Below are positions 1,479-29,345 of a DNA stretch of 29,407 bases, piece after piece. Origin of the DNA: a bacterium. Lineage in GTDB: Bacteria; CSSED10-310; JAJRTK01. A program made the translations under genes and the position numbers. Position 1 is the stretch's first letter. Each line of letters begins with the position of its first letter. The stretch is from NCBI GenBank assembly GCA_024278345.1, contig JAJRTK010000456.1, positions 1 to 29,407 of the forward strand, in the 5' to 3' direction. The notes below the pieces were generated by a model. It saw nothing but the letters and a program-made list of their open reading frames with translations, searched no databases and had not been told where the DNA came from.

Positions 1479-1879
1479 TAGTGTTCCCAAAAAACATCCT
1501 CCACCGCGATCCACTTCCCCTCCATTCACTTCCCGATCACGACATGAGAACCACTCCAGATTTGGGAGAAATGGCAAGAGAGTGGGTCGATGAAAGGCGG
1601 ATGGCAGTCGGCCGGATGGCCGCTGACAGGAGCGGACCTCAACCCCAAGGAGACAAAAACTTTCACAGTTTTCGAATCATTGGACGTTCCATCCGTCCGC
1701 CAAAGCGATGGGTGGTTCTCGCCAAAGAAGTAGAGCCCCCCTCCGAAGGGCGTAAAATTGGCGGGATGGGAGTGGTGCAAGCCTGGATTCGAGCCGCTCC
1801 ACGGGATTCACCGGGACACCGACAGGACCAAGGCCACGGAGGGTCAGGCCGGGAATTTCTGAACTCGCCCTTTGAAACA
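1479..1879. other. Gene-free spacer between mraZ control region and the FHA operon promoter
   Basis: About 400 bp between the second MraZ-type box and the promoter at 1880. Several frames are open on both strands, but their translations show no domain, no ribosome site of note and rich Arg/Pro/Gly composition typical of shadow frames in GC-rich DNA. I see no tRNA-like cloverleaf, terminator or strong repeat here. Confidence 0.5.
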
Positions 1880-8050: not shown

Positions 8051-8126
8051 CAAACCCTTTGTTTTCTTCGTGTTGCGTCCCGCTCACATCGGCGGCAGTC
8101 CGTCCGCCGCTGTTCGCCATCATCGC
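8051..8126 (+). repeat. Dispersed palindromic intergenic element, copy A
   Basis: Reading on the plus strand, a T-rich arm (CCCTTTGTTTTCTTCG) is followed by TTGCGTCCCGCTC. Then comes the palindrome CGGCGG (8090-8095), an 8-base loop and CCGCCG (8104-8109), and finally a TCGCC-containing tail. Copies B (20911-20970), C (19206-19270, inverted) and D (29187-29260, inverted) share the arm and the palindrome position. It lies upstream of the PATAN-type gene. Confidence 0.75.
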
Positions 8127-8373
8127 CGCTCTCACTCTCCACTGCCCTAAGGCCGAAGCACCACCCGAATTCTAGCGGTGTGCCCCTTTGCTTATGGGAC
8201 ATTGCTTCAGGTCAACGCTTTTTGGGGAGGTTGAGCTCCGCTCCCGGCGGCATCACCCACGCCTTCGGCGCGAGTTCCCCCCGTCCGACGCCCCTCGCCT
8301 TTCGGCCTTGCTGAATAGAGTAGCAAGCTGACCTGTGACGCTCCAAGGTATAGGCTCCAACTCCAGGACTCCA
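8127..8373. other. Gene-free spacer downstream of the PilX-like gene
   Basis: About 250 bp after the PilX-like stop. I find no supported gene or clear terminator; short frames here are Arg/Ser/Pro-rich and overlap the repeat element. Closer to the PATAN-type gene there is a perfect 13-bp palindrome, CTGCCGACGGCAG at 7976-7988, 44 bp before the ATG. It could be an operator, but its partner is unknown. Confidence 0.4.
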
Positions 8374-11167: not shown

Positions 11168-11196
11168 AGTTTAGCCCGATCTGGGTATCCACGCAA
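11168..11196 (-). promoter_or_regulatory. Weak candidate promoter for the prepilin pair
   Basis: On the minus strand TTGCGT (11196-11191) is followed after 17 bp by TAAACT (11173-11168), giving three of six and four of six consensus matches. It sits 30 bp ahead of the PilV-like ATG and downstream of the hairpin cluster. The match alone is weak; position is the main support. Confidence 0.3.
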
Positions 11197-11267
11197 GGCG
11201 GGACATTCCCGGGACTATGGAATCGAAAGCGTCCGGGCAACGCCTCGCTGTTGCTTGGCGGTCGTCC

Positions 11268-11350
11268 GGGGATTCCATCCCCTGGCAGGGCTTCGCCCTG
11301 CACCCACCAGGGAGTTACCTCAACTTCCCGTTGCAACGAAGGGCAACGGG
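11268..11350. repeat. Cluster of three perfect hairpins in an intergenic region
   Basis: Three stem-loops follow one another: GGGGAT/ATCCCC with a 3-base loop (11268-11282), GCAGGGC/GCCCTGC with loop TTC (11285-11301), and CCCGTTGC/GCAACGGG with an 8-base loop (11327-11350). None is followed by a T-run in either direction, so they are not classic intrinsic terminators. The region 11138-11516 holds no gene I can support, only this cluster and the weak promoter. The sequence 11370-11420 has a faint resemblance to the arm of the dispersed element. Confidence 0.75.
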
Positions 11351-11516
11351 AGCCCAGCCCGCGTTTTTGTACGCTCCGCGTCTTTTTTGGGTCTTGTTGC
11401 GTGTGCCGGCATAGGTGGATGCCCGCCCGATCTCATGAATCATTCAAATTTGGACTTTCAGACGCGTACCGATACAAACCAGTTTTTCGCCGCTCCTGCC
11501 GGGCCAAGGTTCTTCC

Positions 11517-18818: not shown

Positions 18819-19205
18819 AACTTTCCCCAATTGGTGAGGAGCCCTGCCGGAGACATGGGGCTCGGTTTGCGCCACAAACCCACGGACTGCGCGGGCCAGC
18901 GCTTCAGGTACTTCGACCGATCTGTTCTGAAAGGCAGCTTCGGGAAGCGGCGGGTATCTTCGAGCCCAGGAAAGGCAAATGCACCGGCACAACAGGCACG
19001 GCTAGGCCATCACAAGAACTCGGGCATTCGGAAACCGCAAATTCCACTCTTCTCTGCTAAACTCTGGCGAGGCACTTGGCAAGTCAAGGACACAACTTTT
19101 TCCGAAGATTCTCCCACCCAATCTCCGGAATCGCGCCCTTTCCGGAACTCACGAATCGCCACAAAAAAAACTTAGCCGGACAACGGCAAAGCTCCGGCGG
19201 CAAAG

Positions 19206-19270
19206 CAGGCGAGGAACGGGAGCGGCCGCGAGCGGTCCGAGCGGAACACAACTCCCCAAAAAATAACTCC
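19206..19270 (-). repeat. Dispersed palindromic intergenic element, copy C
   Basis: Read on the minus strand it has a T-rich arm (TTATTTTTTGGGGAGTTG), then TGTTCCGCTCGG, then a diverged GC palindrome including GCGGCCGC, then CTCGCC. The arm matches copy B closely, and the palindrome is the most altered of the four copies. It lies ahead of the promoter of the ATP-grasp gene. Confidence 0.6.
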
Positions 19271-20858: not shown

Positions 20859-20910
20859 GCACCACCGCAAGCGGAAACTCGGCTCCGAGAAGATCGTGCA
20901 AAGCAGCAGG

Positions 20911-20970
20911 ATCTCTTTTGGGGTTGCGTTCCGCTCGCGTCGCGGGGCGGCCGCCCAGCGCCACTCGCCC
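20911..20970 (+). repeat. Dispersed palindromic intergenic element, copy B
   Basis: It has the arm CTCTTTTGGGGTTGCG, then TTCCGCTCGCGTCG, the 12-bp palindrome GGGCGG/CCGCCC without loop (20945-20956), and CCACTCGCC. It fills the 207-bp gap between two convergent genes (ATP-grasp and scramblase), which otherwise contains no gene or clear terminator. Confidence 0.75.
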
Positions 20971-21065
20971 CGAGAGCAGGGCAGCCACCGGGATACGACT
21001 CCCATAAAACTGGGACGCCGCCACGCGGATAGTGTCTCCCGAGGCAGGCACCGGACAGCCTATAG

Positions 21066-22066: not shown

Positions 22067-23779
22067 TTACCGTTCGTATCGAATTTGCAGGTACTCCGGG
22101 GTCCACATGGCCGCCCGGAGCTTGGTCTCCAGCGATTCGGTGGGGGGATTGTCGGCCAGGCCCTCGACCATGGCCCGCTGTACCGTCGCGAGGGCCACGG
22201 CCAAGGAACAGTCCCGGATCCTCCGAATATCCGGCACTAACGCACATTCATCGAGGTCTTCCCGGGTCACTTGTCCGGCCAACGCCTTGGCGGCATCCAG
22301 AAACATCCCGTCTGTCATGCGCCGAGCGCGGCAGAAGGTCACGCCGAGGCCAACGCCCGGAAAGATGAAGGCATTATTGCCCTGTCCGATCCGATAGCGC
22401 TTCCCTTGGTAATCCACGGGATCAAAAGGACTGCCGGTCACCACAAGAGCACGCCCGTTGGACCAACGGATCACCTGTTCCGCCGTGCATTCAGCTCGGG
22501 ACGTGGGGTTGGAAATAGGGAAGACCATGGGTCTTTCGGAGTGGCTCGCCATGAGCTCCACCACCTCCCGCGTGAACCTCCCCGTGGCTCCGGAGCTCCC
22601 GATGAGGATCGTCGGCCGGACATTGGCGATGGCCTCTTCCAGAGAGACTCTGGAGCGGTCCGCGCACTGGAATCCGGCGAGCTCTTCGAGGTCCCTGGCA
22701 TAGGTCGCCTTGAATGGTTCCAAGCGGATCCTGGCGCCAGTGATCAGGCCCTTGGTATCCACCATCCAAACCCTTCGGCGCGCCTCGGTCTTCGTGAGGC
22801 CGTCCTCCATCAGGGCGGCGACGAAGAGGTCGGCGATCCCCTTGGCTGAGGCGCCACCACCCAGGAGCACCGCCCGCTGATCCCGCATCCGGCCGCCTGT
22901 CACCCGAAGCCCCGAGTAGATGGCGGCCAAAATCACGGCTCCCGTCCCCTGGATATCGTCATTGAAGGTGCAAAGGCGATCCCGAAAGCGATCGAGCTGG
23001 TGGATGGCGTTGGCTTTCAGGAAATCTTCCCACTGGAGAAGGACGTTGGGAAACCGCTTCTGAACCGCGGTGACAAATTGGTCGATAAACTCCTGGTAAG
23101 CGTCACCGCGGATGCGCGGTTGGCGGAGCCCCAGATAGAGCGGATCCTCGATCCGCTCCTGATTGTCCGTCCCCACGTCGAGCATGATGGGGAGCGTACC
23201 GTAAGGTGAAATGCCTCCGCACAACGTATAGAGCGCCAGTTTCCCGATGGCGATCCCCATGCCACCGGCTCCCTGATCACCCAAGCCAAGAATCCTCTCG
23301 CCATCGGTCACAACAATGACCGATGGTGTCTGGCAGTGGAAGTTCGACAAGATCTTGTCCATGAGGTGGCGCTGGTCATGAGCGATGTAAAGCCCGCGGC
23401 TCTTGCGATAAATCAAGGAAAACTTCTGGCACGCCTCGCCCACCGTGGGCGTGTAGACAATGGGCATCATCTCCTGGAGATTCTCGTAGACCATCCGATA
23501 GAAGAGCACCTCGTTTCGGTCTTGCAGACTGGCCAAGAAGATGTATTTGTCCAGATCCGTCGGCTGCGATTGGAAATTCCGGTAGTTGCGCTGCAACTGC
23601 TGGTCAATGCTGGAGATGACCGGTGGCAGCAGCCCATGGAGATCCAAATCGTCCCGCTCCCCCATGCTGAACGCACTCGCCTTGTTGGTCAAGGGGTTCA
23701 TGAGGAGCATTCGGCCCTTGTACCTCGCGGCAAGATAATGCTGCCATGTCCCGGGATCTAACTTGATGGAGAAGTCCAT
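22067..23779 (-). CDS. maeA: NAD-type malic enzyme (malate dehydrogenase, oxaloacetate-decarboxylating)
   Basis: Malic enzyme converts malate to pyruvate and CO2 with reduction of NAD(P). The 570 residues fit the large class typified by E. coli MaeA/SfcA. Motifs in order: MPIVYTPTVGEACQKFS, VIVVTDGERILGLGDQG, GIAIGKLALYTLCGGISP, TFNDDIQGTGAVILAA, VLLGGGASAKGIADLF and PISNPTSRAECTAEQ. The full catalytic and metal-binding segments are intact. Cofactor preference is inferred from class only. ATG 23779 follows GAAAGGA. It is 84 bp from the end of the upstream protease gene and 11 bp from the scramblase homologue, with which it forms an operon. With gdhA in the same window it links TCA-cycle intermediates to pyruvate and glutamate. 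Confidence 0.95.
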   Translation of the reverse strand: MDFSIKLDPGTWQHYLAARYKGRMLLMNPLTNKASAFSMGERDDLDLHGLLPPVISSIDQQLQRNYRNFQSQPTDLDKYIFLASLQDRNEVLFYRMVYENLQEMMPIVYTPTVGEACQKFSLIYRKSRGLYIAHDQRHLMDKILSNFHCQTPSVIVVTDGERILGLGDQGAGGMGIAIGKLALYTLCGGISPYGTLPIMLDVGTDNQERIEDPLYLGLRQPRIRGDAYQEFIDQFVTAVQKRFPNVLLQWEDFLKANAIHQLDRFRDRLCTFNDDIQGTGAVILAAIYSGLRVTGGRMRDQRAVLLGGGASAKGIADLFVAALMEDGLTKTEARRRVWMVDTKGLITGARIRLEPFKATYARDLEELAGFQCADRSRVSLEEAIANVRPTILIGSSGATGRFTREVVELMASHSERPMVFPISNPTSRAECTAEQVIRWSNGRALVVTGSPFDPVDYQGKRYRIGQGNNAFIFPGVGLGVTFCRARRMTDGMFLDAAKALAGQVTREDLDECALVPDIRRIRDCSLAVALATVQRAMVEGLADNPPTESLETKLRAAMWTPEYLQIRYER

Positions 23780-29099: not shown

Positions 29100-29186
29100 C
29101 CTCCATAAATCAACCCCTCTCAAAATCTGATGGCCGGGACGATTCCTGGTCGTAAGAGGCTTTCAGGGCATGGAGAAAGGATCAAG

Positions 29187-29260
29187 GGCGATGATAGGCG
29201 AGTGGCGGCGGACGGACTGCCGCCGACGCGAGCGGAAGTCAAGGCAAAGGAAAACAAGGG
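29187..29260 (-). repeat. Dispersed palindromic intergenic element, copy D
   Basis: On the minus strand the arm CCCTTGTTTTCCTTTGCC is followed by TTGACTTCCGCTCGCGTC. Then comes CGGCGG, the same 8-base loop as copy A, CCGCCG (29206-29225), and GCCACTCGCC. Copies A and D share the whole palindrome including the loop CAGTCCGT. The region 29100-29407 contains no other supported gene; frames here that seem to encode peptides are read through this element. Confidence 0.75.
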
Positions 29261-29345
29261 ATTTCGAGGACCTATCAGATCCGGTTGACAAGTCCACGCA
29301 CGAAAGGAACCCACCGTTCAATTCCGTGAATCCCGTCCAGCCCGC

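Follow-up and report, generated by a model that had tools for sequence, protein, structure and literature searches.

The window, the whole stretch of 29,407 nucleotides that was analyzed, is contig C397 of an assembly of 6.06 Mb in 550 contigs that is 87.9% complete. It contains six copies of a dispersed repeat, which were identified with R1, a covariance model derived from 97 aligned copies (Table 1). Four of them, A to D, had been proposed in a sequence-only reading of the window, and the model confirmed all four, with 50–83 bits, at approximately the positions given there. Each was placed between genes by a simple dicodon gene finder written for this analysis, whose gene calls are approximate. 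The two others are a copy at 1581–1661, which is likewise intergenic according to the gene calls (the flanking genes end at 1199 and start at 2090), and a long-loop copy at 8212–8314, about 80 bases from copy A. No Rfam match was obtained within the window.

Table 1. Copies of the repeat family in the window. The REP strand is the strand bearing the GTRG-type tag.
Copy	Position	Hairpin core	REP strand	Strand of model match	Score (bits)	E value
A	8054..8133	8078-8118	-	+	82.1	1.3e-19
B	20905..20984	20929-20969	-	+	59.2	9.9e-14
C	19193..19270	19208-19246	+	-	50.2	2e-11
D	29182..29261	29197-29237	+	-	83.0	7.5e-20
Additional copy	1581..1661	~1596-1637	+	-	50.8	1.5e-11
Additional long-loop copy	8212..8314	8236-8299	-	+	25.4	4.8e-5

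As first described, copies A and D have a common palindrome and loop (GGCGGC-AGTCCGT-CCGCCG), copy B has a distinct palindrome (GGGCGGCCGCCC) and copy C is diverged. The latter belongs to a subfamily in which the stem is broken by a second mismatch (TC/TC as read, GA/AG on the REP strand) and which also includes copies in the sampled stretches L042, L072 and L089. In the copy at 8212–8314, a nested hairpin (ACCCACGCCTTCGGCGCGAGTTCCCC) replaces the loop, and this variant recurs in further copies (in L048, L056, L061, L073, L092, L131, L133, L136 and L141). All six exact matches of GGCACGAGTT in the sample lie within long-loop copies or beside one. A suspected fifth, eroded relative at 11370–11420 scored 2.1 bits (E 0.65) with all filters off and was rejected as a copy; this intergenic stretch carries another dispersed repeat. 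A dispersed repeat characterized by GGGTATCCACGCAAGGCGGGACA and CCCTGGCAGGGCTTCGCCCTGCACCCACCAGGGA, with 14-mers among the commonest of the sample, was also seen at about 11180–11320. Copy D is adjoined, at about 29267–29340, by a second dispersed repeat (GGACCTATCAGATCCGGTTGACAA...), which has 19 core matches in a 682-kb sample, several of them next to copies of the family described here (also in L015 and L093). Several families of palindromic repeats appear to be present in the genome.

Abundance and placement of the family

An exact pattern of the unit (TTCCGCTCGN{10,40}CTCGCC) had 83 matches genome-wide, whereas the same pattern reversed as a control had 25, and one architecture of 38–42 nt was common to nearly all of the 83; the abundance of the family therefore far exceeds chance. 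The four copies of the sequence-only reading are only a small part of it, since a genome search with R1 returned at least 150 matches, every one with at least 67 bits. For an estimate of the copy number we used an unbiased sample of 40 contigs (318 kb) picked by number only, in which 40 copies reached the threshold of 30 bits. Extrapolated to the genome, this corresponds to about 760 copies (95% interval 545–1038) or one per about 8 kb, where the sampled contigs may under-represent copies located at assembly breaks.

By the approximate gene calls, 162 of 192 copies (84%) were wholly intergenic, compared to 15% of random positions. Copies occurred between tandem, convergent and divergent genes alike and without a fixed orientation, the REP strand being sense in 60 cases and antisense in 47 relative to the nearest gene upstream (p = 0.25). 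They were mostly single: among the 192 copies there were six neighboring pairs less than 300 nt apart, in mixed orientation. The covariance model did not detect the family in 59 other genomes, including seven of the same phylum. The exact pattern gave three isolated matches across the contigs of 84,980 species, which is about the estimated chance level, and viral contigs gave two weak matches (16.8 bits).

Structure of the unit and the strand that folds

The conserved unit comprises about 77 nt. On the strand as read it consists of a T-rich arm, GTTGnG, TTCCGCTCGC, the stem-loop and CTCGCC; on the REP strand the order is GGCGA-GTRG-stem-loop-stem-AYGC-GAGC-GGAACGCAACCCAAAGAAAAG. Strong conservation extends about 25 nt upstream and about 11 nt downstream of the core. 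The tag directly before the palindrome reads GTRG in 66 and GYRG in 82 of the 97 aligned copies, and in the predicted folding its third base pairs with the 3′ side (G-C or A-T) in 92 of the 97 and in all 40 held-out copies. On the REP strand, a tandem GA/AG mismatch (TC/TC on the strand as read) interrupts the stem in 96 of the 97 aligned copies; in the remaining one it is altered on one side. Among 160 copies there are 118 distinct inner sequences, including those of the second-mismatch subfamily of copy C and of the long-loop variant. On the REP strand the hairpin is followed by an A-rich tail and not by a T-run and is therefore not an intrinsic terminator.

Since RNAalifold found no structure in the mixed alignment, the paired positions were assigned manually and then tested by controls and with held-out copies. 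In the 97 aligned copies, 89.4% of the cells of the ten named pairs were standard pairs, and 88 cells showed two-sided changes compared to 31 in shuffles and 8–33 in slid controls. In the 40 held-out copies, whose alignment was fitted to the model and is to that extent biased towards it, 84.5% were standard pairs and 52 cells were changed on both sides, compared to 17.8 ± 3.6 in shuffles; these changes touched all ten pairs. Changes are inherited between copies within the family, and the cell counts overstate the number of independent events. The covariation supports the proposal of the sequence-only reading that structure rather than sequence is under selection.

One-sided departures from standard pairing were informative about the strand. 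On the strand as read, 32 A.C and one G.T cells were found in the 97 copies and 15 and none in the held-out copies; on the REP strand, both sets together correspond to 47 G.T cells and one A.C cell. Counted as site-by-type classes, which allows for shared descent, the ratio was 11 to 1 (sign test, p = 0.006). By genomic context, the ratio of G.T to A.C was 20:0 where the REP strand is sense to the gene upstream, 10:1 where it is antisense and 12:0 between divergent genes. The REP strand formed the more stable fold in 97 of 97 copies with RNA parameters and in 96 of 97 with DNA parameters. These results suggest that it is the folded REP strand that is constrained, whether or not it is transcribed, the simplest reading being single-stranded DNA rather than RNA, because the G.T bias persists antisense to and outside of neighboring transcripts.

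A structured RNA would be one alternative: the REP strand would be co-transcribed with its neighbors, and a hairpin selected in the 3′-UTR, e.g., for mRNA stability, attenuation or protein binding, would keep the stems paired. The median distance of 73 nt from a copy to the nearest stop codon agrees with this, and an RNA would permit G.T pairs on one strand; from G.T pairs and location, Di Nocera et al. (PMC3733652) took hints of an RNA function of REPs. We nevertheless consider this explanation unlikely here, as gene orientation is unbiased, the G.T bias is also present in antisense copies and between divergent genes, and the A-rich tail does not fit a terminator. The strand-specific variation fits recognition by a transposase acting on single-stranded DNA better than an RNA role, and its independence of orientation argues for DNA, unlike the earlier RNA-leaning readings of REPs. 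Asking whether wobble pairs are confined to one strand regardless of neighboring transcription is a simple test that can be applied to any REP family and separates recognition of single-stranded DNA from RNA function.

Two further alternatives were considered. Template switching during replication could correct one palindrome arm to match the other and thus create covariation without structural selection, and the great rarity of one-sided intermediates as well as the large number of distinct, almost always well-paired inner sequences speak for it. Such self-correction predicts neither that the leftover mispairs are G.T on a single strand (47:1) nor that the GA/AG mismatch is kept in 96 of 97 rows, and it was already disfavored on these grounds; we regard it as very unlikely. 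The unit might also be part of a MITE about 130 nt long, bounded by inverted RGGGC...GCCCY ends and mobilized by a DDE transposase. Copy A indeed has imperfect outer inverted arms, and 30 of 37 copies with RGGGC upstream have GCCCY downstream (odds ratio 4, p = 0.002). However, strong conservation ends close to the core, and in 109 copies the complementarity of a copy's own flanks (mean 16.5) was no better than that between flanks of different copies (16.6), so that long terminal inverted repeats, convincing at copy A, were rejected for the family and a MITE is highly improbable. Of the initial description as a REP- or MITE-like element, the REP part is borne out, as the genome search returned far more than the four copies and stem covariation also occurs in held-out ones, whereas the MITE part is not supported by the flanks.

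A RAYT-like gene and a proposed mode of propagation

A check for an associated transposase revealed a RAYT gene with a member of the family over its stop codon. It is the sole RAYT-like gene detected in the 87.9% complete assembly (L031:1012–1737), with a better start at the ATG at L094:5523. The encoded protein matched the profile of REP-associated tyrosine transposases (NF047646) with an E value of 1.4e-18, which is under the curated cut-off. Its only PDB match, a weak one (E 0.0021), is TnpA-REP of E. coli (4er8), with which the HUH motif (MPDHVHGII) and the tyrosine motif (EYIENNP) align. The stop codon is overlapped by a diverged family member of 38.2 bits in which ten of ten pairs are standard and whose REP strand is sense. 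Since copies span eight of 655 gene ends in the sample (RAYT included, three of the eight in sense), the probability of such an overlap by chance is about 1%. RAYT genes are classically flanked by two REPs in inverted orientation; on the 5′ side of this gene there is no copy within about 600 nt, and the nearest good copy lies about 1.25 kb away in inverted orientation.

Within an insert, the RAYT gene harbors a different kind of REP in two copies (GTAGGGGCGGGTTC), which could be the real partner of this RAYT. These two in-frame GTAG repeats (GTAGGGGCGGGTTCCGAACCCGCC) at L094:5806–5923 encode GSEPAPT repeats and are located between the HUH motif and the tyrosine. A TATCARATC... repeat near the gene was rejected as its REP, because the stretch lies within a downstream reading frame. 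None of the RAYT loci in seven genomes of the same phylum carries the family described here; all seven (G001–G007) have matches to the RAYT profile, up to 12 in G001. The sub-cut-off profile match, the presence of a copy on the 3′ side only and the other REPs within the gene stand against the assignment, and this RAYT is regarded as the likely partner of the family at about even odds.

Taken together, the data make it likely that the repeats form a GTAG-type REP family of about 760 copies in the genome of one uncultured bacterium, whose folded REP strand is presumably moved by a RAYT-type transposase. According to this model, the REP strand, when single-stranded during replication or repair, would fold into one imperfect hairpin, with the tag, the tandem G.A mismatch and the 3′ tail as recognition marks. 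The enzyme that binds, nicks and copies the hairpin would be an HUH/Y1 transposase of the RAYT (TnpA-REP) type, perhaps the RAYT at G000:C390 (about 22522–23235). Propagation would be limited to copies that still fold on the REP strand, and for this reason the pairing of the stems would be preserved despite drift in their sequence. Most of the copies are probably tolerated intergenic passengers.

In the guide model proposed for IS200/IS605 and TnpA-REP, the tag and the cleavage site are cross-complementary. The family described here shows the same kind of cross-complementarity: GTGG copies have CC or AC just 3′ of the hairpin and GTAG copies AT or CT. The paired tag might accordingly be functional, with the natural copies recording the co-evolution of guide and cleavage site and a single REP being cut at its own foot, a reading that we regard as rather doubtful. 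If it were true, each unit would be a single REP sufficient by itself and not a REPIN.

Comparison with known REP systems

Set against the open-access literature, the family is new and lineage-specific and has some unusual architecture. REPINs consist of two inverted REPs, are derived from REPs and are tied to RAYTs (Bertels and Rainey, 2011; PMC3116915). The present repeats are likewise dispersed REP-type sequences with a plausible tie to a RAYT, but they do not form units of two inverted REPs, as is evident from the few close pairs and their mixed orientation.

In published REPs, a GC-rich palindrome is preceded by a GT(A/G)G head, copies number in the hundreds and one REP is often found at the stop codon of the rayt gene (PMC2817692); the 24 GTAG families described so far include variants of the tag, e.g., GYRG, and stems with compensatory changes (PMC3733652). 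In common with these, the family has a GTRG tag immediately ahead of a GC-rich palindrome, intergenic copies in the hundreds, subfamilies with compensated stems and, in some copies, long self-complementary loops. Among the features that define GTAG-type REPs, the tag, more than 100 copies per genome, the extragenic location and compensatory changes in the palindrome were found, but not an unpaired tag: in the predicted folding, the tag is paired, its third base covarying with the 3′ side, within a hairpin that is extended by a basal stem. We therefore count the family as a variant among the GTAG-type REPs. It differs from them further by a conserved unit of about 77 nt instead of 20–40, the near-invariant tandem G.A/A.G mismatch, the conserved A-rich tail and the mostly single copies.

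The E. coli REPs (PU) with TnpA-REP are also among the closest known systems. TnpA-REP binds and acts on the tagged strand only, as single-stranded DNA, and requires a mismatch in the REP stem for activity (PMC8266576). Both systems have an imperfect palindrome whose stem carries a conserved tandem mismatch, and both are strand-specific in character, whereas in E. coli the mismatch is AA-GC in mid-stem, the tag GTAG is reported to lie ahead of the palindrome and to make contact with the protein, and the REPs form BIMEs. The present family offers two concrete candidates for recognition elements, its covarying tag and its tandem G.A mismatch, and it adds a very large family from a little-sampled phylum to the known REPs.
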